DNA of 59,845 nt from Anaerolineae bacterium (GTDB lineage: Bacteria > Chloroflexota > Anaerolineae > JAFGEY01), in contig JAFGEY010000560.1 in NCBI GenBank assembly GCA_016931365.1, positions 1 through 59,845 on the forward strand. Direction: 5' to 3'. The notes beneath the pieces were generated by a model that was not told where the DNA came from, made no database searches, and saw nothing but the letters and a program-made list of their open reading frames with translations. How positions within the stretch are numbered: position 1 is the first letter of the stretch; each line of letters opens with the position of its first letter. Position numbers and translations under genes: made by a program. Positions 26,087 through 59,845 of the stretch are shown here, piece after piece.

Positions 26087-28381
26087 ATGCAACAATGTGC
26101 CAGGTTCACGTTGCGGTTCAAATCAACAGAACAAGACGTCATTTCGCAAGACGTTGTCTTGACTCAGCCAGTCACTGTGATCGGAAGTGCAGCTCCCAGC
26201 GATCTGATTGTCCGCGCACCCGGACTATCTGACACGCACGCACAGATAGAGTTTCGCCAGGACGGGTGTTATGTGGTCGATCTGGGCTCGGCACAGGGCA
26301 CTCGAGTTAACAGTCGGCGTATTAAGCAATCTCGGCTTGAGCAAGGTGACATCATCCAGCTGGGTTCCGTGACTCTGCAGTTTGAGCCGATCTTTCTGGA
26401 AAATAACTTTGGCGAGGCTGCCGATCACAAAACCACAGCGATCGATCTCTCGGCATTCTCGTCTGATGCAGCGAAATCGAGCCCGACAAAACCCATTCAG
26501 CAGCCGGGAGACCAAATCGGTCGTTATATCGTGCAGGGAAACCTGGGCAGCCGCGGCCATTACACAGTTTACCAAGCTTATGACCCCGATCTTGATCGCG
26601 CCGTAGCGATCAAACTCCTTTCCCCTCGCTTTGTGACAGACAGCAGTTTTCGCGCCCAGGTTCTCGGCGAAGTCAAGCTTATCGCCGCCCTCGACCACCC
26701 TTGCATTGTCCAGGTTTATGACTATGGCGAGCACCAGGAACAACCTTACGTGGTGATGCCTTTGATGGCTGGTGGCACGCTAATGGCCGCTCTAGGCAAA
26801 GGCGCATTTTCTCTGCAACAGATGCAGCCGATCATCACCCGCATTGCTGAAGCGCTGGATGACGCTCACGCGCGGGGCATCATTCATCGGCAGCTCAAAC
26901 CTCGCAACATTTTGTTCGACGAGCAGGGACTCGCCTATCTCTCGGATTTTGCCATTCCCTCGCTTGAAGCTGTCCTTTCAGCCGAACTCGACGACGAATT
27001 GGTGCATTACATCAGCCCAGAGCAAGCACAGGCATTGCGAGATAAACAACCGGCCCAGTTGGATGGCCGAAGCGACATTTATTCGTTGGGCGCTATTTTG
27101 TTTGAAGCGTTGACTGGACAGCCCCCCTTTCAGGCAGAGAGCAGTCTTGATACTGCTCTGACACGCCTAAATACGCCGGCTCCCCGACTTGCGGCCGTCA
27201 AGCCCGACTTGCCTTTTACTTTTCAGCGGATTTTTGATTTGTCGATGGGTTTTGATTCTCACAGTCGCTATGCGAAGGCAAGTGATATGGCCCGTCACAT
27301 CCGGGATATCCTTACTGGTCGGGGCTTTTTGCAACAGCTAAAGGATGATCCCTCCGACAAATTCGGAACGTCTGACAAATCCGATGAGTCTAAAGTCGCA
27401 AAGGAGCTTCAACAAACATCGTCTGAATTATCCGGCGCAGCGATCGGGCGATATCAGGTAGAGCGCGAACTGGGACGCGGCGGGATGGCTGTGGTTTACC
27501 TGGCGTTCGATCCAGTGATCGTCCGTCATGTGGCGATCAAAGTGCTGCCACGCCGGTTGACCGAGAATCCGGGCTTCCGCGAGCTTTTTCAGCGCGAAGC
27601 ACGGATCGTCGCCCGATTGCGCCATGAGAGCGTTGTTGGCCTGTATGACTTTGGCGAGTATAATGCCCAGCCATTTATTGTGATGCAGTATTTGCCTGGC
27701 GGCACGTTGGCTCAACAACTGGCGCAGGGGCCGATCCGTATGCGCAACCTCTCGATGATTGTTGAGCGTGTCGCCGCAGCACTGGACGAGGCGCACAAAA
27801 TGCAAATCATCCACCGCGATGTAAAGCCAGCCAACATCTTGTTCAACGCAGAGCGACAAGCTTTTTTGTCGGACTTTGGGATTGCCGTGCTCTCTGCGGC
27901 AGCGTCAGAGACGGCGGGCGGATGGTTCGCGGCCGGTACGCCAGACTACCTAAGCCCAGAACAGGCCCAGGAATTGTTGGGGAAAGGCCATACCCAGCTA
28001 TCCGGCCCGCGCCAGTTCTGGCATGCTTTAAAAGATCGTTTGGGGATTTCACATCAGGAGAAGGAAAAACGCGCGTCCACACCCGCCGGCGTGGACGCGC
28101 GCAGCGATATCTATTCACTTGGCGTTGTGATCTTTCACGCCCTGACTGGGCGGCCACCCTTTCGGGCCGAGACGCCCCATCAAGTGGCGATGATGCACCT
28201 GACCGCGCCGATCCCCAGCCTGGCTGAACTGACGTCGGGATTGCCCAAACACTGCCAGGCGATCATCGATCGGGCGATGGCCAAAAACCCCGATGAACGC
28301 TACCAGACGGGGAAAGAACTGGCCGATGATTTGAGCGAGTTGGCCACCGGACGCTGGCTGTTGCGGCAGATATCAGATTGA
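26087..28381 (+). CDS. FHA domain plus pseudokinase plus active Ser/Thr kinase
   Basis: 764 residues, no transmembrane helix seen. An FHA domain lies at about 20-105 (LSDTHAQIEF, GSAQGTRVNS). Kinase-like domain 1 begins at about 144. Its glycine loop is irregular (LGSRGHYTVY), it keeps AIKLL, but the catalytic HRD is HRQ (IIHRQLKPRN, about residue 265) and DFG is DFA, so it should be catalytically dead. Kinase domain 2 begins at about 453 with a normal loop LGRGGMAVVY, AIKVL, HRDVKPAN (about 576) and DFG (about 596), and is of the PknB type. The gene ends 9 bases inside the convergent last gene of the eCIS locus. It could phosphorylate FHA partners there; that is inference. Confidence 0.9.
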   Translation: MQQCARFTLRFKSTEQDVISQDVVLTQPVTVIGSAAPSDLIVRAPGLSDTHAQIEFRQDGCYVVDLGSAQGTRVNSRRIKQSRLEQGDIIQLGSVTLQFEPIFLENNFGEAADHKTTAIDLSAFSSDAAKSSPTKPIQQPGDQIGRYIVQGNLGSRGHYTVYQAYDPDLDRAVAIKLLSPRFVTDSSFRAQVLGEVKLIAALDHPCIVQVYDYGEHQEQPYVVMPLMAGGTLMAALGKGAFSLQQMQPIITRIAEALDDAHARGIIHRQLKPRNILFDEQGLAYLSDFAIPSLEAVLSAELDDELVHYISPEQAQALRDKQPAQLDGRSDIYSLGAILFEALTGQPPFQAESSLDTALTRLNTPAPRLAAVKPDLPFTFQRIFDLSMGFDSHSRYAKASDMARHIRDILTGRGFLQQLKDDPSDKFGTSDKSDESKVAKELQQTSSELSGAAIGRYQVERELGRGGMAVVYLAFDPVIVRHVAIKVLPRRLTENPGFRELFQREARIVARLRHESVVGLYDFGEYNAQPFIVMQYLPGGTLAQQLAQGPIRMRNLSMIVERVAAALDEAHKMQIIHRDVKPANILFNAERQAFLSDFGIAVLSAAASETAGGWFAAGTPDYLSPEQAQELLGKGHTQLSGPRQFWHALKDRLGISHQEKEKRASTPAGVDARSDIYSLGVVIFHALTGRPPFRAETPHQVAMMHLTAPIPSLAELTSGLPKHCQAIIDRAMAKNPDERYQTGKELADDLSELATGRWLLRQISD

Positions 28382-29299
28382 TTCACCGTTTGAAAGGTAT
28401 TCCAGCATGTCACGCGCAGCCTGGCGAACACCAGGGTCGTCATCTTGCTCAACAACAGAGATCAAAAGCTCACTCAACCCTTGAACATCCACAGCAGCAA
28501 GCAGAGAAGGAATCTCGACGCGCACATAGGCATGGCTATCGTGAAGGCGCTGGACCAACTCGGCTCGAACATCTACTATTTGGCCGTGGATACTCATTCC
28601 ATCGTAAGGCTTGAACGCCGGCAGATGTCGTGAGGCCATCAAACGTGTATGTTCATCGCTTTGATTGTGCAAACATCTCAACATCGCCGGCCAACCGGAA
28701 GGATCGCCAAGTTGGGCCAGGTAAAAAGCAGCCAGATAGCTCTCCATATCGTCAGGAACATCAACATTGACCAAAGGCAGCAAGGCCTGCCGCGCAGTTT
28801 CAGGTTCACCGCACAGTGCCAGCGACATTGCCGCCTCAATATACGCCGGAGTCATCACATCAAGTGCGTCTGCCGGCAAAGAATTTAGCAAACCGTGAAG
28901 AAGGGCCGTTAAATGTCCCTGAACTTCTGGCGTATCAGGTTGACATCGCCCCGCTAAAAATGCAGCGGCCGGCAGGAGCAAAGCGTCCTTGCTGTAAAAG
29001 ACTCGCTCGAGCATTTCCACCGTCAAGTTCCCTGTTTCATCCTCAAAGATCCCTTTGCCACGCCCCATCAATTGATTGACCATCAATGGATACATATTTT
29101 TTTCTCGCCGCAGGATAAGCGAACTCCGATGTGGAAAGCCGGCAGATGTGATACGCATGCGGCACTGTATTCCAGCGTCAGAATATACGACTAGTCCTTG
29201 GGCGTCAGCGGAGGATGGCACGCCATCGGGGGATAGTGAATGAATTTCTATTTGATCTGGCGAATGTTTGATCAATTTGTGCAAAAAACGCTTAATCAT
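28373..29299 (-). CDS. HEAT-repeat-like protein, last gene of the eCIS run
   Basis: 308 residues, soluble. The C-terminal half has HEAT-like helical repeats (ESYLAAFYLAQLGDPSGWPAM, HDSHAYVRVEIPSLLAAV, DDDPGVRQAARDMLEYL). The N-terminal 110 residues are not recognised. AAGGTG lies 8 bases before the ATG and the gap to the upstream DUF4157 gene is 12 bases, so it belongs to the same transcript. HEAT proteins are usually scaffolds; placed after two cargo-like genes it might be an adaptor, chaperone or immunity-like partner. The 3' end overlaps the convergent kinase gene by 9 bases. Confidence 0.7.
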   Translation of the reverse strand: MIKRFLHKLIKHSPDQIEIHSLSPDGVPSSADAQGLVVYSDAGIQCRMRITSAGFPHRSSLILRREKNMYPLMVNQLMGRGKGIFEDETGNLTVEMLERVFYSKDALLLPAAAFLAGRCQPDTPEVQGHLTALLHGLLNSLPADALDVMTPAYIEAAMSLALCGEPETARQALLPLVNVDVPDDMESYLAAFYLAQLGDPSGWPAMLRCLHNQSDEHTRLMASRHLPAFKPYDGMSIHGQIVDVRAELVQRLHDSHAYVRVEIPSLLAAVDVQGLSELLISVVEQDDDPGVRQAARDMLEYLSNGESI

Positions 29300-29311: not shown

Positions 29312-31129
29312 TTATTTCCAGAACTGCCACCACTTTTTCTTGGCTTTTGCTTCCAGCTTTTCACCTTGGGACTTGACGCCCTGGGCGAGTTGTTCGTAAG
29401 GCTCTTTTCCGTCGCCAAAAGCGCGCTCCTCGCCTGCGTATGACAGATAAGAGGTCGCCCCTCCGGTATAATATGCTGTGTTGGCCCGGCTCAACTGGGT
29501 GATGGCGTTATCCAGGTGCGCAGTCAAATCAGCTTGAATACTGTTCGAAGAAACGGTTTTGCCTTTCAGATAATTGATGACCAGCGTCCGGCCGGGCCCC
29601 TCAGTCCATTGCTTGTCATCGGTGCTGTGGTACTTTTCGTGGCGCTCACATACCTTTTGCGACCAGTATTGGCGACGTGGCGCCCGCCAGCATTTTTCGA
29701 TCTTGACCGGCGTCAGGTCGGAGACAATCTGTTTATAAGATGCTGCGGTCACAATTGCATCGGTCGCCGAAGGGACATCGGTCTTTCCGCCATTGTTAAC
29801 ACCCCAAGGACAGTTGATATCAAGCGTAAAATCCAGCTTGAGCCTGCCTTCATTGACCGTATAGTTGGCGTTTTTCCAACTGGGTCGGTAAGCCTCTTCC
29901 CCAAACGGATCCACTGCCATCCCACCGGGATTTTTCCACGCCACCCGAACGTCCTTGCGGTTGGTCGTCGAGCCAGATGTTGTGACCCCAACATTGCTAA
30001 ACCTGAAACCAATATTGCCCATTGCAATTGGGAGGTTCCCAGCAGATGGTGAGGCTGCCGATGGCGCAGATGCGGTTCGAGTGCTATTTCCGGTCCCATC
30101 CAATTTGACGCGATCATCAGGACCTTTGACCACCTCTTCTTCCTCGGTCGATTCATGCCCGGCCAGAGTGCCCGCATCAACCTTGCGCAGGCCAGGCTTG
30201 GGTTGACGACGGATCGCCGCCCCACCCTGCTGTACGACATGGGCCAGCTCGTGTGCCAGCAGTTGCTTGCCTCCAGCAGTTTCAGGTGCATAGTGCCCGG
30301 CGCCAAAGTGGATGTCGGACCCTAATGTGAACGCTTTGGCCTGGATCGCCCGATTCAGGGTTGCGGATTCACTCCCCGTATGCACGCGCACGCCGCTGAA
30401 ATCGACGCCGAATTTAGCGTCAAACTCGGTCCGGGTAAAAGGCGGCAAAGGCTGCCCTTCGCCTCTGGTGCCGCTCAAGCGGCGTTCAAACTCGCCGCCA
30501 GCTTCAAAACTGCCATCAGACCGACGCTGAAGCAGAGATGTCATCTGGATCATCTCTTCTTCTTCCTCGGGCACTGCTTGTCGCTGGAGCGGCATTGTTT
30601 GCACTTCCTCTTCTTCAGGCACCGCTTCGCGCCGCAGCGACATGGTCTGGATTTCTTCTTCCTCGGGCACCTCCTGTCGCTGGAGCGGCATCGTCTGGAC
30701 TTCCTCTTCCTCGGGCGCCGCCTGGCGTTGCACAAGAGGCGTGATCGTCGCGGCAAGTGGTTTGGTCTGGACTTCTTCTTCCTCCTCTTGCCGCTGCACG
30801 TTGCCTACCTGCTGACCGTTACTGACCGGCATCGGCATACTCATCACCCGTTCGGCAATTCGATCTGCTTCTCGCTCGTATTGATCGCCTGCCGCACCAA
30901 CGGTCAGCTTGGCCTGGATCAGGTGCGAAACAGCGCGATTGCCCGTCGCACGCTGCAAGGCCAATATATGGGCCGGGCGGGCCTGTCGCAGATCCGTAGC
31001 CACGCGCTGGAGCATCTCCATCACAGACGGTCGCGACATCCCTGTCGATTCCGGCTGCACAAGAGCAGGTTGGGGCTGCTTGCGCACCGGCTCAAGAGAT
31101 TGTTTACCTAATACCTTTTGATCTGCCAT
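29312..31129 (-). CDS. DUF4157 (eCIS core domain) protein with a second HExxH motif, probable cargo
   Basis: 605 residues; AAGGTGAA precedes the ATG. Residues 40-85 (LQRATGNRAVSHLIQAKL, YEREADRIAERV) are nearly the same as in the next DUF4157 protein. Residues 105-200 hold four 16-residue repeats of the form PEEEEVQTMPLQRQ. The eCIS core domain follows (FGVDFSGVRVHTG, AKAFTLGSDIHFG), with the zinc-peptidase-like HELAHVVQQG at about 295. The C-terminal 250 residues are unlike the neighbour and contain CERHEKYHSTDDKQW (about 497), another HExxH, ending in a lysine- and tryptophan-rich tail (KKKWWQFWK). DUF4157 proteins are commonly eCIS-linked toxins or cargo. Here the C-terminal part is inferred to be the payload, perhaps a metalloprotease. 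Confidence 0.8.
   Translation of the reverse strand: MADQKVLGKQSLEPVRKQPQPALVQPESTGMSRPSVMEMLQRVATDLRQARPAHILALQRATGNRAVSHLIQAKLTVGAAGDQYEREADRIAERVMSMPMPVSNGQQVGNVQRQEEEEEVQTKPLAATITPLVQRQAAPEEEEVQTMPLQRQEVPEEEEIQTMSLRREAVPEEEEVQTMPLQRQAVPEEEEEMIQMTSLLQRRSDGSFEAGGEFERRLSGTRGEGQPLPPFTRTEFDAKFGVDFSGVRVHTGSESATLNRAIQAKAFTLGSDIHFGAGHYAPETAGGKQLLAHELAHVVQQGGAAIRRQPKPGLRKVDAGTLAGHESTEEEEVVKGPDDRVKLDGTGNSTRTASAPSAASPSAGNLPIAMGNIGFRFSNVGVTTSGSTTNRKDVRVAWKNPGGMAVDPFGEEAYRPSWKNANYTVNEGRLKLDFTLDINCPWGVNNGGKTDVPSATDAIVTAASYKQIVSDLTPVKIEKCWRAPRRQYWSQKVCERHEKYHSTDDKQWTEGPGRTLVINYLKGKTVSSNSIQADLTAHLDNAITQLSRANTAYYTGGATSYLSYAGEERAFGDGKEPYEQLAQGVKSQGEKLEAKAKKKWWQFWK
30556..30750 (-). repeat. Four 48-base in-frame coding repeats
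   Basis: A 48-base unit recurs at a fixed spacing (GGGCAC/GGCACC landmarks at about 30570, 30618, 30666 and 30714). Each unit encodes 16 residues ending in QRQ or RRE after a run of glutamates. The units differ by several bases, so the array is older than a fresh slippage event. Confidence 0.8.
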
Positions 31130-31166: not shown

Positions 31167-33275
31167 TCATATTATACCGAGAAGCTGCTTTTCTTTTTCT
31201 GAAATCAGTCCCGGATTTTGCTTCAAGTACTCGATATAAGCCTGCAAGCCGAGGGCCATATAGGCATCGGCGTTTTCTTGCTGCACGCCAATATCGCCAC
31301 TGAACACGTCCTGATATGCCTTGCGGATCGCTTCACCGACGATGGCGCGCTGGCGGCCCTTGTATTTGATCTTTTCCATCAAATAGTATTCCTTGGCCTG
31401 CTGCCGCCGCTCCGATTTGCTCAACCCTCCTTTGCGCAGACGCGAACGGTTCCAGACCTCAAACTTGTCTTTGGCTTCGCGGTAGGCCTTGCGGTATGTG
31501 GGATCGTTCTGCAGAAGGCCGGCTCCCTGTTCGTAAAAAGCCATCCCTTCTTCGAGCAAGCCCTTAAACTCGTCGGGGACGTTTTCGGTGGGGAGCTGTT
31601 TGGCCGTCTTATAGAGGTCGGCCATCCCTTCTTGGGCAATGGTCTGCTTGAAAACCAGGGCCATATTTCTGCGTTTTTCGCCGGTAGTCGAACCGGTCGC
31701 TGTTTTGCCGACCGCGCCGACCATCGACGCGCCCGACGACATGGCCGGTAAGAACCACTTGGCGCTCATCTTGCGTTTTTCGGGCGGTGCTTGCAGCACG
31801 CTGCCGGGAAAAGTGATTTTCTTTTCTTTGGTCGCACCCACTTGCTGGACGAAACTAGCCAGCACGCCCTGTCCAAAGGCCACCCCCAAGACCAGACCTT
31901 TGCGGTTGACACTGGCATTGTCCGGCGCCCAGCCATCAATCGAGTCTTGCCCTGTCCTGGTCTTGAACACCTCGACGCCTTGCTTTTCCCATTCATATTC
32001 ATTGAACGCTAAACGCGCATCATGGCCGGTAAAGGCATTCCCTTCGCCGTGCGATCCGCGATCTTCGGCCTGATGCAAGGCATCGCTGAGCACTGACATA
32101 CCCTCGGCGTGCTGGTAACTCTTCCACAGGCTGACCGCCTTGCCGATTAAACGCGTGGTCACGGCTGCGTTTTTGGCCGCGGCATCATCGTCTTTGTACA
32201 ATCCGGCCTCGCCGTGGCTCAACATGTAGGCCGGACGGCGATAGTGAATTTCGTTGTTGTTGTACATCTCGATCGCTTGCGGGCGAGTCTTTGTGTCCTT
32301 GCGCAACTTTTTATAGGCGTCAATTTTGCTTTTCGATTCGGCGATGCCCCGGTTCATCGTCGTGGCTTCGTCCTGGATGAAATCGATGTCGGGCGAGCGA
32401 TCGACAAGATAGTCAAGCACTTGTTTGTCGTAAAATTGATCAAAACCGCCTTCTTTGATCGCCATTTCCGAGACCAGGCGATGTCCGGTCGGCCACCAGC
32501 CGCGAATATGCTGCGCCGCGCCTTGCTGCAAGGTGTGAGTCAGTTCGTGGGCCAGCAAGTGCTTGCCGGATACAGTATCAGGGGCATAAGCGCCACTGCC
32601 CATATAGATGTCGCGCCCGTGGGTGAAGGCGCGAGCGTTCACTGCACGGTTCAGTTCGGCGGCATCCGCACCGGTGTGGACACGCACGCTGCTGAAATCG
32701 GCGCCGAACTTGGGTTCGAACTCAGCCCGTAGCGGAGCAGGCAAGGACAGGCCGCCACTCTGGGCGCTGTTCAGGCGACGCTCAAATTCGCCGCCAGGGT
32801 CAAAGCTACCTTTCGCCACACGTTGGAGGGGCATAGCCTGTACTTCTTCTTCCTCTTCTTGGCGCTGGACAAGCGGCTTGGTCTGGATTTCCTCTTCTTC
32901 CTCCTGCCGCTGAACAAACGGTGTGATGGTTGCCGCAAGTGGTTTGGCCTGAAGTGCTTCTTCTTCCTCTTGACCCTCTTGCCGCCGTACACCGTCAGAT
33001 GCTCCTTGGCTTACTGGCGCAGGCATATTGAGCACGCGCTCGGCGACACGGTCGGCTTCTTGCTCGTACTGGTCGCCGGCCGCGCCAACGGTGAGTTTGG
33101 CCTGGATCAGACCAGTCACGGCCCGGTTACCGGCGGTGCGCTGCAAAGCCAGGACATCGCGCTGAAGCGCCGACAAACCCAGCCCCGTCACACGCACAGG
33201 CGTCGCCTCGGTGTGATGAGGTAAGGGAGAATGAGCATGCGATTGAAGGCGAATTCTTTTACCGCAAACTGACAC
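31167..33275 (-). CDS. DUF4157 (eCIS core domain) protein with phospholipase C/nuclease P1-like tail, probable cargo
   Basis: 702 residues from GTG 33275, which has GGGAGG 7 bases upstream; that site lies within the last codons of the giant gene, so the two may be coupled. Order: LQRTAGNRAV and YEQEADRVAERV leader (about 38-85), Glu-rich QRQ repeats (about 95-150), eCIS core domain with HELTHTLQQG (about 244), then a 440-residue tail. The tail has widely spaced His/Asp motifs, including IHYRRPAYMLSHGEAG and ALHQAEDRGSHGEG with GHD after it (about 397-418). ALHxxED..SH is typical of zinc-dependent phospholipase C and nuclease P1-like folds. Membrane-lipid or nucleic-acid attack is therefore possible, as inference only. 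Confidence 0.8.
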   Translation of the reverse strand: MSVCGKRIRLQSHAHSPLPHHTEATPVRVTGLGLSALQRDVLALQRTAGNRAVTGLIQAKLTVGAAGDQYEQEADRVAERVLNMPAPVSQGASDGVRRQEGQEEEEALQAKPLAATITPFVQRQEEEEEIQTKPLVQRQEEEEEVQAMPLQRVAKGSFDPGGEFERRLNSAQSGGLSLPAPLRAEFEPKFGADFSSVRVHTGADAAELNRAVNARAFTHGRDIYMGSGAYAPDTVSGKHLLAHELTHTLQQGAAQHIRGWWPTGHRLVSEMAIKEGGFDQFYDKQVLDYLVDRSPDIDFIQDEATTMNRGIAESKSKIDAYKKLRKDTKTRPQAIEMYNNNEIHYRRPAYMLSHGEAGLYKDDDAAAKNAAVTTRLIGKAVSLWKSYQHAEGMSVLSDALHQAEDRGSHGEGNAFTGHDARLAFNEYEWEKQGVEVFKTRTGQDSIDGWAPDNASVNRKGLVLGVAFGQGVLASFVQQVGATKEKKITFPGSVLQAPPEKRKMSAKWFLPAMSSGASMVGAVGKTATGSTTGEKRRNMALVFKQTIAQEGMADLYKTAKQLPTENVPDEFKGLLEEGMAFYEQGAGLLQNDPTYRKAYREAKDKFEVWNRSRLRKGGLSKSERRQQAKEYYLMEKIKYKGRQRAIVGEAIRKAYQDVFSGDIGVQQENADAYMALGLQAYIEYLKQNPGLISEKEKQLLGII

Positions 33276-33287: not shown

Positions 33288-36200
33288 CTATTCAATGGTG
33301 ATACTGGCCGTATCCGTGCTCGAACTATACGGCGTCGTGCCTCCTGCCGATGTCGTATCAACCTTGTTTCCCGCAACGCCGCTGGATTGATCCCAGGCGC
33401 GGAACGTGAACGCACAAGAACCGGACCCCGTTGGATTAAAGCGCACTCGATCGGTTGGCCCCAAAAGTAAGGCGCTGCTGACGCTCACCGGAGCGACAGC
33501 AGTCCAGTTCAGACCGCCATCGAGCGAATACTGCCAGTCTCCAATGCCACAGCCATCGGCGGCAACTATGGCAATCGCCTTGACGGCGACGCCATCCACA
33601 TCACTGATCGAGCCATCGACCACAATGCCGGCGACGGTATCTGCGGTGTTGGTCAAAGGCAGCGCGGTAGAAATGATCGTGGTCAGCGTCGGGCTAAAAG
33701 AGGCATTCAGTACCGGCGCATCGTTTTCGGGAGTGATGACGACGTCGACGACAATTGTGTCCGTTCCGGTCAAACCATCGCTGACCTGTACGACAAAGCT
33801 ATCCATCCCATTATAGTTTGCATCGGGTGTATACCCAATGGCTCTTGACGTGCCCGTGCCGCTTGCCGTCGCTGTGCCGTGACCGGCCGCCGAGCTGATG
33901 CTCCAGGTGATGGTGTGCCCATCGGCATCTGTGGCGTGCAAGGTTAAGCCAAAAGCGATGGGCGATCCATCTTCGGACATCGTGACCGTGATCTCTGCGC
34001 CTTCGGTGATTTGCGGCGCGCGGTTGATCGGATTGATAGTAACCTCGTCCTGATCGTCTTCACTCAAGAGGTGATTGTTCGGCGTGCTGTCCCAATCAGG
34101 CTCGGTCACGGCAATCACTTCGGCCACGTTGACGATGGCGCTGCTGCCGGTGACTGAGGCAACCAGCGTGAGCGTCACCTGTGCGCCGGCATTGAGCGTG
34201 CCAATGTTCCAATCTCCGTTGCCCGAATTATAGGAGCCGGCCGTAGCGGCGGCATTGACAAAAATCAAGCCGGCGGGCAACGCATCGTTGACAACCACAC
34301 CGGTCGCCGTGGCTGTATGCTCGTTGCTAACCACGATAGTATAGGTAATCAAGTCGCTGATAAAGGGCGCTGTCGTGTTGACCGTTTTGCGCAGAGCAAC
34401 ATCGACCTTCACACCCACATCGGTCCCCAAGACGGTTTCGTTGGGCAGGTTGGGATCGGTCGTGTCGCTCGACATACGCGCCGTGTTGGTGATCCGCGTC
34501 TGGGCGAGCAAATCATTTGCAACGGTGACGGTAAAGACGATCTGGCCCGCCGCGCCGGGTGATAGTGAGGGCGTATACCAACGCACCCACCCGGCGACCA
34601 AGTTTTCCACCCGGTTCGCGATGCCCTGATTGACAACGCCACCCCAGGTGACGCTGAGCGGCAGCGTATCGGTGATATAGACTTCACGAGCCAGGGAGGG
34701 GCCGGCATTGGCATAGCTGATGGTATAGGTCAGGGTTTCACCGGCCGCCGTCACCCCCTGGATTGATTTATTGATCGTCAGATCGGCCCGTGCCTGCACC
34801 GCTGTGGTAATAGACATTTGATTGTCGCCCGCATCCGAATCGCCGACGCGACTGGTAATGGTTGCCGTATTGACCAGAATGCTTCCATCCGGCACGCTCG
34901 CATTGACGGTCACGGTAAAGCGGGTGGTGACGACAGCATCGACCGCCAGTTCGGACCAGGTCCACTCCACCACCTGCCCATCCGGTGATGGAGTGATGCT
35001 GGATGGCGCTGCGCTGCCGGGCAACATACCACCAAAGGTGACACCGGTCGTAAGCCGGTCGGTCAGCGTGATCGAACGCGCATACGATGGCCCTGTATTG
35101 GTGTGGATGAGCGTATAGGTCAGAACTGTCCCGGCCAGAACAGGATCGGGAGAATCCAGCTTGCGCACGCTGAGATCGGCCTGCGGCACCAGACTGACCC
35201 TGACCGAAGCCTGATTGTTGGACAAGTTCGAGTCCACGTAACCGCCCGGAACAGCAATATCTGCCGTGTTGGAAACCGACGAGAGCGTCGTTGAGGGAAC
35301 AACGTTGCCAATTACTATATACGTGACTGTACCGCCAGGCTCCAATCGCTCGATCGAGTGGGCGAGCGAGCCAAAGCCACTGGTCAAACCGCAAGATGAC
35401 CCCGGCGAAGGCTGGCATGTCCACGCCAATCCCTGGAAAAGGCCACCGGGCAGCGTATCCGAGGTCGTGGCATCCACCACCCGGACCGTTGCGCTAGCAT
35501 TAGTAACGACAATCGTGTAGGTAACCGGCTCGCCTGGAGCAACCACGTTGGTCGAAGCCGATTTAGTGACCCGAAGATCGGTTTGCAGAACCACCGTTGT
35601 ATTGATTGATTCATCGTTGGCATTCGGCCCGGGATCGGTTGTCTGGCTGGTGATAGTGACCCAGTTAGTGATCTCGCCCGGCAGGACCAAGCTGTCGGTC
35701 ACGGTCACCGTAAAGACAATCGTGCCCGAGGCTCCAGCCGCCAGCGACGGTGTTACCCAACGCACCCACCCGCTTGACAGACTTTCTTCACGGGTGACAA
35801 CGCTCGAACTACGGACACCGCCCCAGGTCACACTAATGGGCAGCGAATCTGTAATCGTAACCTGCCGCGCATAAGATGGCCCGTGGTTGGTGTAAATCAA
35901 GGTATAGGTCAGGACATCGCCAGCAACAACAGGATCGGGGGCATCCAGCTTGCTCACCTCAAGATCGGCCAGAGTGACAACAGTGGTAGTCATTGTATCG
36001 CTGTTATTGCCCAACACGGGATCTGGAACAATGCTGCTGATCTCGACCCGATTGACCAATTCGCCGGTTGCCCAAGGTGAAACCGTAACTGTGAAGACAA
36101 CTGTGTCCGCAACCTGTGCCCCCAGTGTTGGCCTGGACCAAACCAGTTGCTGACCGTTCACGACTGGCAACAAGCCAGGACTGACGACACCCCTAAATAC

Positions 36201-52268: not shown

Positions 52269-53273
52269 TCAGCCAAGCCCTTGTTTGGGTTCAATACGCA
52301 ATGTATAAGCCGCATGGGCCGGTTTTTCTGTTTCAATGATCGTCTCGATCAAGCGCCGGTGTTCTTGAGCTAAACGTGCATTTTCTGCCTCAGATTCAGC
52401 GCCGACAACGGGAGACAACGACAAAATCACAGTAAACGTGTGCGGCATATTCTCCCGTCCTAATGCGATGCTCAAGCCCAGCTTGCCCTCTGCGCCCAGG
52501 CGAAAATTGTGCGCCATATGTTCGACAATGACCGGCTTGACACCGGTAAAAATCTCCAGATAGCGTTCCAAGGCCCATTTTGTGCCACGGCGGCGATACA
52601 GCGTAGCGGCGGACTGAATCAGCAGCCGCCGTCGCTCCAATGACCAGTTCTCATTCAAAACCAGGCCTAGCCAGGAAGCCAGCCAGGACAGCAACTCGGG
52701 CGGCGTGAGTTTGGGATCAAAGTAAACCGGAATCTGGGCGATCTGTCTATCGATGGGCGACCAAAAGCTTTCAAAGAGCATCAGAAAACGTCCCATCAAA
52801 TCATCAGATTGATAAATGGAGGGCAGATATTGCAGATACCGCCCTTTAGCCGAGACGGCAATGGAAACAGCATCGGAAACGGACACGGATTCACCATCGG
52901 CACCCGGCACAACGACGGTCGCCCGGCTCGGCAAAACAACATCCTGCAGCGTGGGCGAAACCCTGGCAATGGCATGATACTCATAAACGCCGGCATCGAG
53001 TGGCGCATCTACCTTCCAGACAAGATAGGTCATTTCGGCAGTTACCCCAGCCTGGGGAATCACATTATCGGGCGCATATGTATTACCTGGCACCAGGCCC
53101 TCTGGAAAAGAGATGCGAAGTGTAAGCGCGGGCACTGATCGCCGCACTGTGATCCGCGTGGATAGAGTCACATCATCGCCAGGATAGCGCTGATAAAAAT
53201 CGGCGATGTGTGAAACCTCGACTGTGTTCTCAGTGTCTGTCTTGCTGGCTAATCCTTGAGCGTCTTGCATCAT
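52269..53273 (-). CDS. Phage tail protein I-like baseplate protein (Afp12-like)
   Basis: 334 residues. The C-terminal two thirds match the tail protein I / TIGR02242-type domain: LQYLPSIYQSDDLMGRFLMLFE (about 148), then PELLSWLASWLGLVLNENW, LYRRRGTKWALERYLEIFTG and a closing IETEKPAHAAYTLRIEP. In contractile systems this protein forms the wedge that links baseplate to fibres. The N-terminal 140 residues are beta-rich and probably contact neighbours. No strong ribosome site; it starts at one of two adjacent ATGs, 7 bases after the baseplate J gene, so coupling is likely. Confidence 0.88.
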   Translation of the reverse strand: MMQDAQGLASKTDTENTVEVSHIADFYQRYPGDDVTLSTRITVRRSVPALTLRISFPEGLVPGNTYAPDNVIPQAGVTAEMTYLVWKVDAPLDAGVYEYHAIARVSPTLQDVVLPSRATVVVPGADGESVSVSDAVSIAVSAKGRYLQYLPSIYQSDDLMGRFLMLFESFWSPIDRQIAQIPVYFDPKLTPPELLSWLASWLGLVLNENWSLERRRLLIQSAATLYRRRGTKWALERYLEIFTGVKPVIVEHMAHNFRLGAEGKLGLSIALGRENMPHTFTVILSLSPVVGAESEAENARLAQEHRRLIETIIETEKPAHAAYTLRIEPKQGLG

Positions 53274-53280: not shown

Positions 53281-55404
53281 TCACAAAGTAACCACTTGAA
53301 TTTCGTGCCCGAGCGAACAGACCAATGTGTCCGGGGGAACTTGAATCACTCGTTGATCTGACACTGCCAGTTGCTCGACGACTACCTCGATGGTCTCTTT
53401 CTCCTCATCCTCGGACTGGCCAACCTGCTCGGTTGGCGGGCGCTCGCGGCTGGGCATCACCGGCCGGGAGCCCAACTTGACATCGAGGACGTGCTTAACA
53501 CCAGGAACCTGCTGAATCAACGAATAGATCTCTGAAACGTACAGATCGCGGCCAAAAGGCCATCCCTCCCACTCAGGGCCCAAGAATTCAATCAACGGTT
53601 CGTCTTGCGTTTCCAGGGCCAACGGAGAAACAAAATGATCCAGGAACTCGCGAACCCGGGCCACCACAGGCTCTGCCCGGTGATATTCCGAGAGGACGAT
53701 CTGCGCCTGGACCTTGATTCCCAAATAGTGCGGCTCGCGGATATTCAATGTGGTCGTCAACAGGCGATACTGATCGAGATGCGCACGCACCGTCTTGATC
53801 AGGGCTTCGTCCAACACCAGCCGGGATCGGTCACCCAATCTGAGCGCATCAAAAGCCGCGGGGACGACGATCAGGTCAATCATACCGGGTGGAATCGTTC
53901 CACTGACCTGACCCGGCGCATTGCACTTGACGCGCGCCACCCGGCGGCTGGCAACGCGTCCCAGGTTTTCATAGTCTTCCGCCGTGACCGCTCGCTGCTG
54001 AGCGCGCACCTCACGCTGGGCGCGCAGCCGGGCCTCTTCAAGACTTTCCTGATCCCGCCCACCGATCGCCCGATACAGGTTGCTGACCCGGTCGACATAG
54101 GGAATTGCAGATCGAAGCACCTGGAGTTTACCTGCCGGCACATTGCCAATAACGCCACCGCCGTGACGATACTGGCTCATCCGAATCTGGAAGCCAGTTT
54201 CCGGTACGCGCCCATATTGATGGACCGTGCCATCCGGCTGGCGGACGCCAAGGCCAAACCCGATCTCCCCGGTCGCCTCATCGAGAACAAAGTGCCGGCT
54301 GTGTCGGTCGGAGCGAGAGAAATCGGGCACACGTTGCCAGGGAATAAACACCATCTCACCATCGCGGTCTTCTTCGACCTCGATGGTCTCGCCGGATCCA
54401 AGCGCGAGTACCGGTGCATGCTGGAGGTTAAAGATCTGCCCCGGTTCGCCGGAACTGCGACCCAACGCCTCTTCGCGAACCACTGTCGCGTGAGTGGCAG
54501 TGGTTGTCGCCCCGACCGCGTATGCAGAAACATTGATGATCCGTGGCGAGCGATTATACGTTCCCTGTTCCGAGCGACGTGGTTCGAACCGACAGCGCAC
54601 CCAATACGCATTGCGCCCTTGCACCAGATCGGGCCTGATGGTAAGCGGCAAGTACAGGACCAGCCGTCCTCTGGCGTTGTTCAGACCGCCGGTTGTATCC
54701 TGCTCGCTGCGACGAGAACTAGGGGCGATTTCCTGCCACTGACCATTGCCCAACGAACACTCCCAAATCAGGGGCGGATCCTCGCGTCTGATGCCTACGC
54801 CCTCAGTCTCCCGGCACTCAAACGCCAGTTGCAGCACGTACCCGCAGAGGTCTTGACTTTCGTCAAAGCCCAGGTAGAACGTGTCGCCTATCTGGGGTCG
54901 ATCCCGATTAAAGGCATAAAAATCTTCGATGCCCAGCCGAGGCAAATAGTTGCGGGTCAAATCGGCTTCGCGGCGCAATTGCGTCAGCTTGGGTGCGCGG
55001 AGGACTAATTTTTCATCGGTCGTAAAAATAATCGCAGGTTCTTCCTCGGTACTCCAGGTAGATACCTCAATTCCTTGCGGCACAGTCGTGATCGTATCGT
55101 CTTCCGGGCCGAGCGGAAAAGGTGCAGAAAGCCAGAAGGTCAATTCGGTATGAGCGCTGCCGGCAGGCTGAAGCTGGATGCCGAGCAACTCCATGAACTT
55201 GATATAACTTTTTTCCGGTATCCGATTCAGCCGATAAACCATCATTTCAGTCATCCAGGCAAAAAGCTCGATGAGCGTGATGCCTGGATCGCTCAAATTA
55301 TAGTCTGTCCACTCGGGACAGTAGCGGATAATGCGGCGTCTGGCCTCATCGACCAAATCGCGTTGAAAACGCAAATCGTCCAGGTTGGGTGTTGGTAATG
55401 GCAT
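53281..55404 (-). CDS. Baseplate J-like assembly protein (Afp11-like)
   Basis: 707 residues; AAGGAG lies 10 bases before the ATG. It matches the putative baseplate assembly protein family (gpJ/gp6-type wedge). It begins with LVDEARRRIIRYCPEWTDYNL and FAWMTEMMVYRLNRIPEKSY, a strongly conserved start in contractile injection systems. The middle has IGFGLGVRQPDGTVHQYGRVP and GNVPAGKLQVL, and then RAVTAEDYENLGR with VARVKCN, the J-type signature. It joins the gp25 and tail protein I products in the baseplate wedge. Placement between those two genes fits. Confidence 0.92.
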   Translation of the reverse strand: MPLPTPNLDDLRFQRDLVDEARRRIIRYCPEWTDYNLSDPGITLIELFAWMTEMMVYRLNRIPEKSYIKFMELLGIQLQPAGSAHTELTFWLSAPFPLGPEDDTITTVPQGIEVSTWSTEEEPAIIFTTDEKLVLRAPKLTQLRREADLTRNYLPRLGIEDFYAFNRDRPQIGDTFYLGFDESQDLCGYVLQLAFECRETEGVGIRREDPPLIWECSLGNGQWQEIAPSSRRSEQDTTGGLNNARGRLVLYLPLTIRPDLVQGRNAYWVRCRFEPRRSEQGTYNRSPRIINVSAYAVGATTTATHATVVREEALGRSSGEPGQIFNLQHAPVLALGSGETIEVEEDRDGEMVFIPWQRVPDFSRSDRHSRHFVLDEATGEIGFGLGVRQPDGTVHQYGRVPETGFQIRMSQYRHGGGVIGNVPAGKLQVLRSAIPYVDRVSNLYRAIGGRDQESLEEARLRAQREVRAQQRAVTAEDYENLGRVASRRVARVKCNAPGQVSGTIPPGMIDLIVVPAAFDALRLGDRSRLVLDEALIKTVRAHLDQYRLLTTTLNIREPHYLGIKVQAQIVLSEYHRAEPVVARVREFLDHFVSPLALETQDEPLIEFLGPEWEGWPFGRDLYVSEIYSLIQQVPGVKHVLDVKLGSRPVMPSRERPPTEQVGQSEDEEKETIEVVVEQLAVSDQRVIQVPPDTLVCSLGHEIQVVTL

Positions 55405-55878: not shown

Positions 55879-56175
55879 TCAACCAATCAATACCGTTGGA
55901 CACCCGGCAGCGATCGAATCTGGCGGCCCGACACAAGTGGCCATATCTCCCATTCGTGCGGCCGGCTGCCCGCCGATCAGTACAGTCACACTTCCCAGTG
56001 TAATCGGTCCGCCGACATGTGGGATCGGGGGCACTCCTGGTGTTTGCATTGGACAAGTATGCATATCGCCCATTCGGGCGGCCGGCTGTCCCCCAATCAA
56101 AACAGTTGGACATCCGGCGACAATCACACCGCCATGTGCAGTCGAATCACCCATTCGGGCGGCTGGCTGGCCCAT
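55879..56175 (-). CDS. PAAR-repeat spike tip protein (Afp10-like)
   Basis: 98 residues; AGGAG lies 8 bases before the ATG. It carries three copies of QPAARMGD (about residues 3, 30 and 68) with DxxxH/C pairs after each, as in PAAR proteins, which form a sharp metal-holding cone on the VgrG trimer. The repeats at DNA level are near-identical. It directly follows the spike gene. No effector extension is fused to it, so cargo is probably not carried on the tip. Confidence 0.93.
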   Translation of the reverse strand: MGQPAARMGDSTAHGGVIVAGCPTVLIGGQPAARMGDMHTCPMQTPGVPPIPHVGGPITLGSVTVLIGGQPAARMGDMATCVGPPDSIAAGCPTVLIG

Positions 56176-56200: not shown

Positions 56201-57997
56201 TCAGTTAATCTTGACAATTCCACCCTTGACCTCAGTCATCGCACTGCCTTCCACGCCGACTGTTGCACCTTTGAGCGTACTTTTGGCCGAACCCTCCACC
56301 GTCGTCTGAGTTCCTTTGACGGTGGCATTACCGGTGGCTTCTGCGTTTAAATTACCAGTTGTCTTGAGTGTCCCATTGGCTTTGGATTCCAGGGCCATAT
56401 CGCCGGTGCTGGTAATCGACACTTTGCCTTTGGCCACCACGGTAAAATCACCCTCGACGTTAAAAGTCATCGAGTTGGCCGAAGAATCGATAATAATCTC
56501 GTTTTTCTCGGTTTTGTCACGGATGGTGATCTTTTCCGCGCCATCCGAATCGTCGAAAATGACAATGTGCCCGCTGGTCGATTTGAAAATGCGTTCTTTG
56601 ACCTTGCCGCTCGCGGTCGCCTCCGAGTTGGGCTTGGGCGGTTTGTCGGTGCTGCTCCAGAGCATGCCCACAATGTAAGGGTGATGGACATCGCCGTGTT
56701 CAAAAGCGACCAAGACCTCGTCATTGACCTCGGGCAAATAGTAAAACCCCCGCTCGGCGCCGGCCATCGGCGCAGCAATGCGCATCCAATCGCTTTCGAT
56801 ATCATCCCCCAGCCAGCCGTATTTCACCTTGACCCGGCCCAAATCGTCGGGGTCTGAAAGGTTGGTTACCAACCCGGTGACCACGCCGCGCATCGAACCG
56901 CTTTCCTGCTCGCCCCCATTCCCGCCAAGCAGGTGGCTCAGGGTGTTGGGCCGCCGTCCGGTGATGCTGAACGTGGTTTGATAGCCGTCTTCAGTGTAGC
57001 GATGGATCGCCTGGGTTACCAAATACTTGCCGCCAAATCGAGTCCCCACGTTTTCAATGGTCACCGTGTAGCCAGCCTTGACACGCGGATCGCCCCGCCC
57101 CATCCCTTCTGCTTCCACAAATTCGCGGCTGATATCATTGCTCAACCCGATGGCGATTGCCGTGGCCTCATCAACGGTGAATACAGGCTGATCCGTAATG
57201 GTCGCTTCGGCTGCCGAAAAAGCAGATTGAGCCTTGGCGCCGCCAGTCTGAGTCATTCCACCCTGGTTCAAACTGCTGCTGGGCGTTTGCTGGTTGGTGA
57301 TCGCCGTTTTGGCCTTGCCATCCCATCCCTTGACGATAAACTTGTCAGCCTGGTGGGTGGCCGCAAAACAGGGGCGAAAACTGCGCAAAGCCTCCCCCAG
57401 TTTCAGCTCCGGCCCATCGCCCAGGGTCGCATCTCCTTTTTTAAAGTAAAGCTTACCTTCAGCGGCGTAGACTTGGTAACCGATGCGCGCCGCACGGCCC
57501 AGCAGAAATTCCATATTGGTCTGGTTGTTCTGCAAAATATAGTCGTAGGTCACGGTGGTTGTATCTGCTTGCGCGCTCAACCCCGCCTCTCCGGCAATCT
57601 TTGAAACCAGATCGGAATCTTTTACTTGGAGAAAGGTGCGCGTCTTTTTGCCGCGATGCAGCCGATGCGATTTGTCATAGCCCCGGATCAGCAAAGTCGT
57701 CCTGCCTTCGGCGGAAAAATCTGGCTCCAGTGCCGTGATCTCGCCTTTGATCAGCACGCCCTCGAGTGCACCTTGCTCTTCACCCGTCTTTGTACTGATC
57801 TCGACTTCCTTGCCGATATCTAGCAATTGTGTGTCGTCAACCCATTTCAAATTGGCATCATTGAGCTGAATTGTAAACATACTCGGCAGATGCAGGCTGG
57901 TATCGACAACAACCTCGATCAGCGCCGCCATGAACTCCTGCGGCACATTTTGCCCACCAATTTTGATGAAAAATTGCGTCAAATATTTTTGAGGCAT
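56201..57997 (-). CDS. VgrG/gpD-like spike protein (Afp8-like)
   Basis: 598 residues. N-terminal half resembles phage late-control D protein (VVVDTSLHLPSMFTIQLND, GYDKSHRLHRGKKTRTFLQV). Residues 370-470 are a gpV OB-fold: GLVTNLSDPDDLGRVKVKYGW, APMAGAERGFYYLPEVNDEV and EHGDVHHPYIVGMLW. The C-terminal 100 residues are short beta repeats ending in MTEVKGG, the triangular helix below the tip. A trimer would form the spike bearing the PAAR protein. A weak GGGA lies 10 bases before the ATG. Confidence 0.93.
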   Translation of the reverse strand: MPQKYLTQFFIKIGGQNVPQEFMAALIEVVVDTSLHLPSMFTIQLNDANLKWVDDTQLLDIGKEVEISTKTGEEQGALEGVLIKGEITALEPDFSAEGRTTLLIRGYDKSHRLHRGKKTRTFLQVKDSDLVSKIAGEAGLSAQADTTTVTYDYILQNNQTNMEFLLGRAARIGYQVYAAEGKLYFKKGDATLGDGPELKLGEALRSFRPCFAATHQADKFIVKGWDGKAKTAITNQQTPSSSLNQGGMTQTGGAKAQSAFSAAEATITDQPVFTVDEATAIAIGLSNDISREFVEAEGMGRGDPRVKAGYTVTIENVGTRFGGKYLVTQAIHRYTEDGYQTTFSITGRRPNTLSHLLGGNGGEQESGSMRGVVTGLVTNLSDPDDLGRVKVKYGWLGDDIESDWMRIAAPMAGAERGFYYLPEVNDEVLVAFEHGDVHHPYIVGMLWSSTDKPPKPNSEATASGKVKERIFKSTSGHIVIFDDSDGAEKITIRDKTEKNEIIIDSSANSMTFNVEGDFTVVAKGKVSITSTGDMALESKANGTLKTTGNLNAEATGNATVKGTQTTVEGSAKSTLKGATVGVEGSAMTEVKGGIVKIN

Positions 57998-58012: not shown

Positions 58013-58684
58013 TTATGACAATGGAACCAGTTTGAGCACTTGCCCCGGATAGAGTGACCAGGGATTATCCAGGTTATTGGTCTCTGCAATATGCCGCCAC
58101 TGGGCCGCATCGCCATATTCGCGATACGCAATCCAGTCCAGCCGTTCGCCTTCGTGAACAACCCAGGTCTTGCGTGGCTCACTGCGCGAGGTCGGGTTTT
58201 GACCTTGCGGCACGTCTCTGATCTTGGCAAAGGTCACTTTGACTTTGGCCCGTAGCGGCGTGCCATCCGGTTTGAACATCGTAAAATTTTGCGTGATTTC
58301 TGTGATCACCGCGTTAAATGACAGCATTCGCCCCCATTGAAACTGGCATGTCGGCGGCTCGGCGCGCCCCGTCGTCGTGTTTTCTTCACCTTGAGTGACT
58401 GAAGCAATTTCAAGCAAGAGGTTATAGCTGTCACGTACATCACTGCCTGTATCCGTCGTATCGAACAAAAGTTCGGGGATCTCCAATGTCTGCTCTCCAC
58501 CGCCGGCAAAAGAATACGCGGGCGTATCCTCGCCAATGCTGGTTCTTCTGACCCAGCGAATTTGCGAGGAAATGTTGAGGTCCTTGGGGTTAAAGTGACA
58601 AACGACCTTGGCGCCTTCATCCACCGCGCCATTTGATTGCAGCTTGAAAATTGTTGCTTTTTGTACCTGCGGTCTTTCCGACAT
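58013..58684 (-). CDS. LysM tube-baseplate adaptor (Afp7-like)
   Basis: 223 residues; AGGAG lies 6 bases before the ATG. The N-terminal part has CHFNPKDLNISSQIRWVRR and LEIPELLFDTTDTGSDVR, and WGRMLSFNAVITEITQNFTMF, all typical of contractile tail adaptors. The C-terminal LysM domain (WVVHEGERLDWIAYREYGD to YPGQVLKL) is the common end of this family. It would join the inner tube to the spike. Confidence 0.92.
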   Translation of the reverse strand: MSERPQVQKATIFKLQSNGAVDEGAKVVCHFNPKDLNISSQIRWVRRTSIGEDTPAYSFAGGGEQTLEIPELLFDTTDTGSDVRDSYNLLLEIASVTQGEENTTTGRAEPPTCQFQWGRMLSFNAVITEITQNFTMFKPDGTPLRAKVKVTFAKIRDVPQGQNPTSRSEPRKTWVVHEGERLDWIAYREYGDAAQWRHIAETNNLDNPWSLYPGQVLKLVPLS

Positions 58685-58781: not shown

Positions 58782-59845
58782 TTATCGCCAACGGCATGTC
58801 CTTCGCTCGCGTTCCACAGCCAACATCCGTTTGATACGCGGATACACTTCTTTGGCCAACCGATCCAGATCCGGCCCGGCTTGTTCTTCCGGTGCTGCGC
58901 CCATCTCAAGCGATGTTGTTTCAACGCGCTGGATCGCATTAGCCGTATCAGAAGATTCAAAGGAACTGATCGGCACATCTTTGATCTGTCGCTGGATCGC
59001 ACCTGCAAAAGGCGGCGTGCTTGTAAGCGGCAATGGCAGCCTCTCGCTCGCTTCTAAAGAACTGGACAGCCCGGCATCAAATCGCACGCCCTGGGTAATT
59101 GATGGCGCAGTTACTCCGGCTGCTACTGGCAATGGTTCGGCCTGTACCTCCGAAGAAAAACGACTCAATGGCGACGGTCGAACACCCGGTCGCACTCGCT
59201 GTTCACGTTCGGTCTGGCGTTGTATCTGTGCTAAAGGCAAAATCGTCGTTCGCTCAACAGAGCGCGTCTGAATCACGGACTTGGGCGATACGTCAGAGTG
59301 CAGTGCCAAAGGCGGCGATTGCTCTTGAACAGACTGCCGCTGGACAAGCTGATCCATCACCGTGACAGCCATTCCAGGACGTTGCGGTGACACAGAAGGC
59401 AAGAACAGATCGCCAGTGCCCGTCCCAGACGGCGAGCCCACAACCTGAGTGGGCAATGTCTCCTGTTCCAACTGCTGCAGCACAGCGGGCACGGAGACAC
59501 CCGACACAGGCAAATCAGATGATACAAGAGTATCAGACGGAACTGGCGTACCGGGCGGAATCGCTTCTAGCCGACGTTGAATGACAGCTGGAGCAATCGG
59601 CGCGACCAGCGGCAAAGCGGCAGGCACGGCCGCTGCCTTTTCTTTCTGGACAACTCTAGCTGGCGGCTCTGTCGGCACGGATGAAGGTGTTGTTTCCTCA
59701 AACGGCCCGCTTTGCACAGCCGGTACGCTTATCTCCGGCGATCCCGTAATGGGCGGCGTCGGCGCACTGGATGGGCCTGTTTCCGGCTGGCGTTGAACAA
59801 CATCTGGCGCGGCCGGTGCAGCCAAAGGCAAGGCGGAAGACTCTG
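58782..59845 (-). CDS. QRQ-motif low-complexity eCIS protein, 5' end beyond the window
   Basis: At least 354 residues; the frame is open at the window edge and no start is visible. The chain is rich in Pro, Val, Ala and Ser with repeated (V/I)QRQ or similar islands about every 30-45 residues: VVQRQPETG, AVIQRRLEA, LVQRQSVQE, IQRQTERE, AIQRQIKD and AIQRVET. The C terminus LDRLAKEVYPRIKRMLAVERER resembles a segment I associate with eCIS proteins encoded next to the LysM gene. The same QRQ islands occur in the two DUF4157 proteins of this locus. It may be an unstructured linker that holds cargo; that is inference. Confidence 0.65.
   Translation of the reverse strand, partial: ESSALPLAAPAAPDVVQRQPETGPSSAPTPPITGSPEISVPAVQSGPFEETTPSSVPTEPPARVVQKEKAAAVPAALPLVAPIAPAVIQRRLEAIPPGTPVPSDTLVSSDLPVSGVSVPAVLQQLEQETLPTQVVGSPSGTGTGDLFLPSVSPQRPGMAVTVMDQLVQRQSVQEQSPPLALHSDVSPKSVIQTRSVERTTILPLAQIQRQTEREQRVRPGVRPSPLSRFSSEVQAEPLPVAAGVTAPSITQGVRFDAGLSSSLEASERLPLPLTSTPPFAGAIQRQIKDVPISSFESSDTANAIQRVETTSLEMGAAPEEQAGPDLDRLAKEVYPRIKRMLAVERERRTCRWR

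Follow-up and report, generated by a model that had tools for sequence, protein, structure and literature searches.

The DNA analysed here (the window) is a 59,845-nucleotide stretch of an Anaerolineae bacterium (GenBank assembly GCA_016931365.1, contig JAFGEY010000560.1), which carries on its minus strand a contractile injection system (CIS) locus whose baseplate and spike genes are followed by a module rich in predicted membrane proteins. A sequence-only reading of the same DNA had reported baseplate and spike genes here; CIS_tube/LysM, VgrG-like spike, gp25, Baseplate_J and Tail_P2_I genes were confirmed at the position and on the strand given. The genes of the locus, in their order along the minus strand, are given below (aa, amino acids; ORF, open reading frame; TM, transmembrane; L and G numbers denote loci and genomes of relatives).

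58782..59843, minus strand: Tme-like gene, C-terminal 353 aa, cut by the window end; position of the tapemeasure-related DUF4157 gene
58013..58684, minus strand: CIS_tube/LysM protein (Afp7-like); PF19266, E 2.1e-28, and LysM
56201..57997, minus strand: VgrG-like spike (Afp8-like); NF033848, E 1.9e-115
55879..56175, minus strand: PAAR-repeat spike tip, 98 aa; 70-73% identity to ORFs in the same place in L005 and L011
55434..55844, minus strand: gp25-like baseplate protein; PF04965, E 2.2e-25
53281..55404, minus strand: Baseplate J-like protein, bpJ (Afp11-like); TIGR02243, E 1.4e-126
52269..53273, minus strand: Afp12/TssG-like Tail_P2_I wedge protein; PF09684, E 9.3e-15, and CIS12 model TIGR02242
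51016..52206, minus strand: CIS13-DUF4159, with a putative N-terminal TssK-shoulder-like domain and a C-terminal DUF4159 (GATase/ThuA-like) domain
49376..51166, minus strand: methyltransferase, MethyTransf_Reg (PF10119, 9e-24) and PKMT winged-helix (PF21782, 2.4e-16)
48575..49375, minus strand: FHA266, soluble, with a degenerate FHA domain and a beta domain; PF16697/PF00498
46099..48594, minus strand: VWA protein; PF00092, 1.2e-12
42965..46048, minus strand: FHA1027, with a degenerate FHA domain, two beta domains, a TM segment and an Ig part; PF00498, 9.4e-6
33288..42977, minus strand: 3229-aa surface protein with FG-GAP, PKD, LTD, seven DUF11 and Big/cadherin domains
31167..33275, minus strand: DUF4157b, candidate cargo; eCIS_core and, at the C-terminus, a putative zinc phospholipase C-like domain
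29312..31129, minus strand: DUF4157a, eCIS_core (PF13699, 8.8e-31) and a C-terminus with a second HExxH; candidate cargo
28373..29299, minus strand: HEAT-repeat protein, final gene; PF13646, 5.9e-10

The earlier reading had counted six baseplate and spike genes and ten non-structural ones. The genes it listed are present; the structural ones number seven with PAAR and CIS13, and eight genes follow CIS13-DUF4159, which is itself of baseplate type by its N-terminus. The 98-aa ORF at 55879..56175, which we take to be PAAR from its repeat pattern, was preferred to an ORF at 55841-56113. The methyltransferase (49376..51166) is protein-lysine methyltransferase-like, and its true start probably lies downstream of the listed one. 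Distances between genes range from -151 to +97 bases, the -151 being a start-codon effect of the longest ORF, and this spacing fits an operon. Terminator-like patterns numbered 33 at 42900-59845, against 18.3 (standard deviation 4.6) in shuffled sequence, and 22 at 28300-44300, against 14.5 (standard deviation 4.4); by coordinates, none on the minus strand fell in the gaps between locus genes.

We assessed the linkage of the module to CIS genes with a profile of FHA266 built from 29 homologues. The search gave 278 matches, its own entry included, and 19 loci were found in the genome collection, 18 of them from Chloroflexota groups. These relatives are contigs of metagenome-assembled genomes, and their annotation relied on models for the families present in the window; the bit-score, 5 kb and 600-base cuts used throughout were chosen by us. 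CIS structural or CIS13 genes lay beside FHA266 in 18 of the 19 loci, the exception being L008, where 1.1 kb with two unrecognised ORFs remains up to the contig end. In a set of 396 genomes, a single class-wide draw around one Roseilinea genome, the profile matched 89 at E<=1e-3, mostly weakly, and 32 reached 78 bits or more. A hand tally placed CIS genes on the FHA266 contig in 27 of these 32. In three others (G252, G280 and G220) the locus stops at or near a contig edge, and in the remaining two, G262 and G272, FHA266 is unlinked to CIS genes and the CIS is broken: in G262 its pieces are separated by 1.34 Mb and include spike and CIS13 fragments of 66 and 74 aa, and in G272 bpJ is interrupted by a stop. 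G327 (69 bits, contig start) fell below the cut and was excluded. A full bpJ (300 bits or more) accompanied a strong FHA1027 (430 bits or more) in 26 of 30 genomes, against 45 of 366 for the rest (Fisher p 8e-18, hand tally). No FHA266 relative appeared in viral contigs among 15 pattern matches.

An anchor on FHA266 is biased towards the module, and the loci were therefore also collected by bpJ alone (TIGR02243, 300 bits or more), which gave 75 matches in 71 of the 396 genomes; 69 loci were used, and G155, G233, G380, G177, G216 and G020, with less than 1.5 kb of downstream contig, were left out. Fifty-eight loci, excluding the broken L069, had 5 kb or more downstream. Twenty carried the FHA266 module (type A) and one, at a contig end, is probably of this type; in 27, the co-directional run included an FHA protein bearing a TM segment (type B), and in 10 the run contained no FHA protein of this kind. 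Across 22 type A loci, CIS13 was present in all, FHA1027 in 17, the surface protein in 15 and the methyltransferase in 11 (two copies in five); the VWA protein was complete in 11 and reduced to its core in 11. Where FHA1027 (five loci) or the surface protein (seven) is missing, the contig ends before those genes. Surface-protein homologues occupy the same place in relatives, and gene order departs in only two loci, L091 and L122. Two of the type A loci, L010 and L013, come from metagenome-assembled genomes named Litorilinea aerophila. The methyltransferase is thus an optional member of the module.

A bpJ tree of 70 rows, made without module genes by a quick method with the Shimodaira-Hasegawa-like approximate likelihood ratio test (SH-aLRT) and no bootstrap, gathered type A into one 27-row set on a long stem (SH-aLRT 100), made up of the window, 22 clear and three probable loci, and the broken L069. 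The nearest partner of the window is L001. Because these genes stay with the baseplate genes and their carriers form a single bpJ clade, the data support the earlier suggestion of a subtype, with the genes from methyltransferase to surface protein as its sequence marker. Two deep-branching loci, L120 and L129, have no FHA protein or module after the wedge gene and instead show tandem weak-CIS13 ORFs, with an AAA+ gene downstream. Separately, partial TIGR02243 matches of about 200 bits, occurring in pairs inside ORFs of about 850-1690 aa (G218:C262, G107:C2, G258:C69, G375:C242 and others), are candidates for another baseplate-like or divergent system.

For the two DUF4157 genes and the HEAT gene, which had been counted into the extra half, membership of its conserved part is not supported: DUF4157 genes occupy varying places across relatives' loci, and the HEAT protein had no match in the 19 FHA266 loci or their annotated flanks.

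TM segments were called by hydropathy only, on ORFs assigned to their best model above 60 bits. Membrane signals were found in 27/28 FHA1027, 15/16 VWA and 11/11 VWA-core ORFs, the FHA1027 and VWA counts including some sister-lineage ORFs, and in 8/18 surface ORFs, several of which lack their N-terminus. Among particle proteins they were practically confined to a single spike (bpJ 0/69, gp25 0/64, Afp12-like 0/62, CIS13 0/26, spike 1/58), and FHA266 had none (0/22). In the window, FHA1027 reads as a cytosolic FHA domain and two beta domains, one TM segment at 383-401 and an extracellular Ig part. The VWA protein reads as a signal peptide, external VWA and Ig domains, a TM segment at ~534, a cytosolic beta domain and a C-terminal TM segment at ~809, and the 3229-aa protein has a hydrophobic N-terminal segment at residue 23. 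By these hydropathy calls, both FHA1027 and the VWA protein appear to reside in the membrane of the producer. In L003, L006, L012, L016 and L018 the VWA protein is replaced by a protein of ~300 aa that aligns with the TM-cytosol-TM part alone, which makes the VWA head the optional part.

This layout bears on the view that the VWA protein and other downstream products are injected toxins or effectors. Geller 2021 (PMC8213781, in the part that lists such domains) names VWA as an eCIS-associated anti-eukaryote candidate and places effectors at the 3' end (eCIS, extracellular CIS). Against this stand the signal peptide and two TM segments, the retention of the core without the VWA head, the very large secreted neighbour and the clade-wide presence of these proteins, unlike DUF4157 cargo. 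We consider this view very improbable; for the VWA protein itself, a role as toxin was rejected on the strength of the signal peptide and the TM core kept without VWA. The data suggest a platform role for the VWA proteins of such loci rather than injection as toxins.

The particle genes point to a known system; papers are cited here for the sections that treat the systems concerned. The Streptomyces coelicolor CIS (CIS-Sc; PDB 9gtp/9gtr/9gts, PMC12237407) was the best PDB match for bpJ (9gtp, E 4e-126; second 7aeb, 4.2e-9), for the spike (9gtr, E 8e-59; second 7aef, 1.6e-38), for the Afp12-like protein, whose sole match was 9gtp_E (E 3.2e-13), and for the sheath of a relative; this closeness is a ranking among solved structures, not a position in a tree with reference genes of other lineages. 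Chloroflexota CIS of the Roseiflexus/Deinococcota lineage IId have likewise been placed near Streptomyces cytoplasmic CIS, and the sections on the Roseiflexus CIS describe it as cytoplasmic and unanchored, with no close CisA homologues and an attachment mechanism that may differ (PMC12998442). In CIS-Sc, the fibre place after the baseplate genes is held by the membrane protein CisA, which is required for firing and is described as having a disordered N-terminus, a TM segment and a substrate-binding-like C-terminus (PMC12237407; we compared it by description only). In the window the module takes that place, where in our reading its FHA and VWA proteins would stand in for CisA in function, and the contents differ: CIS13-DUF4159, two FHA proteins, the VWA protein and a giant secreted protein. 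No target-binding tail fibre was recognised in the window or in the 22 type A runs, the runs being searched with the window's own families only.

With a module so rich in membrane proteins standing in the CisA/fibre place, the simplest reading is that the system would dock to the membrane of its producer. We lean slightly towards a CIS of the Streptomyces cytoplasmic kind whose fibre place has been taken over by a producer-envelope module and which would be docked to its own membrane. How cell-bound CIS outside the type VI secretion system (T6SS) reach and sense the membrane is largely open, and the module offers concrete candidates.

The label eCIS in the sequence-only reading holds for CIS, while "extracellular" is doubtful given the lack of a recognised fibre, the membrane-rich module and the cytoplasmic nearest solved relative. 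If the system were nevertheless a released eCIS, the surface and VWA proteins would form a coat on the particle or the producer and take over target binding from fibres. FG-GAP, Ig and VWA are indeed target-binding domain types, and VWA occurs on some eCIS fibres in the part of PMC12923769 that describes them. The signal peptides and TM segments, on the other hand, place the module proteins in the Sec pathway and the membrane, whereas CIS particles are assembled in the cytosol. CIS13-DUF4159 shows no recognised fibre domain, and among solved structures it is the cytoplasmic CIS of Streptomyces that comes closest. We regard a released particle of this kind as improbable.

CIS13-DUF4159 is a candidate for the link between baseplate and membrane. 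Its N-terminus scored 33.9 bits against NCBIfam CIS13 (cutoff 370) and contains a putative TssK-like domain, TssK also standing at Foldseek rank 38 (E 6.3e-3); a weak profile match (E 0.0088) leads to the crown protein All3314 (Cis19) of the Anabaena thylakoid-anchored CIS (tCIS). There, fibre-type and baseplate proteins became membrane anchors (PMC8894136), through a TM helix of Cis13 and an extension of Cis12, whereas CIS13 of the window has no TM segment and separate membrane proteins come next. In the eBAP3 and eBAP4 fibre anchors, the former TssK-like, a shoulder-type domain also stands downstream of Tail_P2_I (PMC12923769); the window differs in having a compact DUF4159 domain behind the shoulder and no recognised fibre.

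Likeness to the T6SS extends over the candidate TssK-like connector domain, the Tail_P2_I/TssG-like wedge, FHA domains and a TM kinase in the sister lineage described below. PpkA and Fha act in the threonine-phosphorylation pathway of the T6SS, and the parts list is shared with these loci. The T6SS differs from the relative L026, which has a single Phage_sheath_1 sheath, an eCIS cap and an AAA+ protein; no TssJLM family was found among the window genes or ten upstream ORFs of L026, and the match of FHA266 to TagH is weak (24.9 bits against a cutoff of 120). Searches of open-licence PMC papers on CIS/eCIS with Chloroflexi, FHA, VWA or Anaerolineae gave no description of the module. The main texts of PMC8213781, PMC11297309 and PMC12210884 contain neither FHA nor Chloroflexi/Chloroflex, that of PMC12998442 mentions neither FHA nor Anaerolineae, and that of PMC12923769 does not mention Chloroflex.

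In FHA domains, an Arg and a Ser of the binding loops contact phosphothreonine. The Arg is present in 0/29 and the Ser in 3/29 FHA266 sequences, and in 9/15 and 1/15 FHA1027 sequences, the window copy of FHA1027 retaining the Arg. We had first considered a phospho-switch acting through the FHA proteins of the window; with the two residues almost wholly missing from FHA266 and in part from FHA1027, it is unlikely. A structural role, similar to that of the YscD-type FHA fold (whose Pfam model also matches), is likelier for the FHA domains of this lineage.

The sister lineage, represented by type B and no-FHA loci, shows a different state. The gene that follows the wedge gene in L062 (10211-12976) encodes a kinase, an FHA domain, an Ig-like part, TSP3 repeats and a TM segment, and FHA domains matching that of L062 keep the Arg in 63/63 and the Ser in 58/63 cases. 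We defined the kinase slot as the two non-structural ORFs of at least 300 aa that come first behind bpJ on the same strand (L069, L078 and L114 excluded), and a kinase occupied it in 27 of 41 loci; 32/74 slot ORFs were kinases, against 6/114 others in the same stretches (p 3e-10). A single ORF matched kinase, FHA and Ig-TM parts in 23 of the 27 kinase-slot loci. The catalytic Lys/Asp/Asp residues are present in 29/38 kinase domains, and in the kinases of L062, L086 and L089 the HRD Asp is missing. Between the Ig-TM part of L062 and type A FHA1027 there is a match of 32 to 87 bits where found; the latter looks like the sister-lineage protein minus its kinase.

Among the 36 loci of type B or without FHA that have a Tail_P2_I match (L069 excluded), the wedge protein itself carries a fused FHA domain in 25 (phmmer above 15 bits), against 0/25 type A loci; in the window's Tail_P2_I protein, Pfam found no FHA domain at E<=1. 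A Pfam check confirmed 9/9 wedge FHA domains (E 1e-13 to 5e-20), the nine having been chosen for already matching, and canonical N-terminal examples are L063:11439-12377, L088:4524-5501 and L104:6472-7461. These loci thus place a TM kinase gene near the CIS baseplate and a phosphothreonine reader on it. Two further arrangements were seen: in L113, L115 and L117 the wedge gene is succeeded by two kinase-FHA-TM genes, one of them encoding ~2500 aa, together with VWA-like and AAA+-like genes, and in L073 (G313) a 600-aa FHA-Ig ORF adjoins a Pvc15-like AAA+ ORF (5856-8132 and 8382-10181), ~35 kb from bpJ on the same contig.

Under the docking reading, the TssK-like domain of CIS13-DUF4159 would sit on the baseplate wedge, and its DUF4159 head and soluble FHA266 would form the bridge from the baseplate to two cytosolic partners, the FHA/beta part of FHA1027 and the VWA-protein core. 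Both of these membrane proteins would cross the membrane, exposing their Ig and VWA parts beside the secreted 3229-aa protein, which may be an antenna or adhesin. Outside contact or stress could then pass through the platform to the docked baseplate and trigger firing across the producer's membrane with DUF4157 cargo, either outward at a neighbour or, as in Streptomyces, with lysis of the producer. In the sister lineage the platform would be a TM Ser/Thr kinase with FHA, and phosphothreonine probably controls docking or firing there, because the platform is a kinase-FHA protein and the wedge often carries FHA; in the window lineage the degenerate FHA sites are probably structural joints. Tentatively, and as a possibility we would hold less firmly than docking itself, this extends to the class: a baseplate loaded on a TM receptor under phosphothreonine control, with kinase activity gating docking or firing. 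The window's clade would then be a derivative that lost the kinase and uses FHA folds as joints, its additions being the TssK-like connector with DUF4159, the VWA head and the giant surface antenna. If true, this would be a membrane-docked CIS that arose separately from the T6SS and the tCIS.

FHA-Ig proteins are also common away from CIS, the FHA1027 profile matching 174 of the 396 genomes at E<=1e-6. Gene order, clade-wide conservation, membrane signals limited to the module, the lack of a recognised fibre and the degenerate FHA sites are directly observed, while contact between module and baseplate is what we infer from sequence. The module might instead serve envelope adhesion or signalling on its own, sharing only transcription with the CIS and making no baseplate contact, as the frequency of FHA-Ig proteins without CIS, the resemblance of the VWA and surface proteins to ordinary adhesins, and G272, which keeps an FHA266-VWA-FHA1027 set apart from its broken CIS, would allow. 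Such independence sits poorly with the order conserved across a deep clade, the sister-lineage wedge proteins that carry an FHA domain and the baseplate-type domain of CIS13-DUF4159, and both unlinked cases come from genomes with a broken CIS. We therefore judge a separate system unlikely and retain docking as the preferred reading.

The upstream half of the system would lie beyond the window's contig, and the sheath, tube, cap and AAA+ genes that the sequence-only reading expected there were found in relatives. A Phage_sheath_1 gene (PF04984) is present in 14/14 relatives' genomes and shares the module's contig in eight, seven above the cut-off and one partial below it at a contig edge. All four genes (AAA+, Pvc16_N cap, sheath and gp19 tube) are named by Pfam in one relative, L026, where they form one cluster: a BTAD regulator on the opposite strand, AAA+ with a winged helix, Pvc16_N cap, sheath and gp19 tube, then a methyltransferase-like gene, a 121-aa protein, two more gp19 tube genes and a 2530-aa eCIS_core protein. 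LysM and spike come next, at the start of L017. Similar clusters occur in L021, L022, L024, L028 and L030.

The 2530-aa gene stands where Streptomyces davawensis has the gene of Tme, a DUF4157 effector related to tapemeasure proteins, which is the largest gene there and lies directly upstream of the baseplate genes (PMC11126660, in the part on this effector). Genes of ~2500-2600 aa hold this place in L026 (12252-19844), L024 (375-8261) and L021 (1930-9690), with two weak eCIS_core domains (by Pfam in L026). The window holds only the C-terminal 353 aa of the corresponding gene (58782..59843), which had no family match in domain-model scans, while its L026 counterpart has eCIS_core domains. A short C-terminal motif of the fragment recurs in L003, L006, L012 and L016 and in the ~2600-aa genes ahead of the LysM gene in L021 and L024.

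As for the remaining genes, the C-terminal 448 aa of DUF4157b form a putative zinc phospholipase C-like domain behind the eCIS_core domain; Foldseek by itself was not significant for this protein, and the DUF4157a C-terminus had no Pfam match. A Ser/Thr kinase with an N-terminal FHA domain, STPK764 (26087-28381, plus strand), converges on the end of the CIS locus with a 9-base overlap. It was set aside as a locus member on the ground that it had no match in the 19 FHA266 loci or annotated flanks. Finally, in the Roseilinea CIS locus L031, a protein with a Hedgehog N-terminal signalling domain (PF01085; 2859-3620) is encoded between the surface gene and the AAA+ gene.

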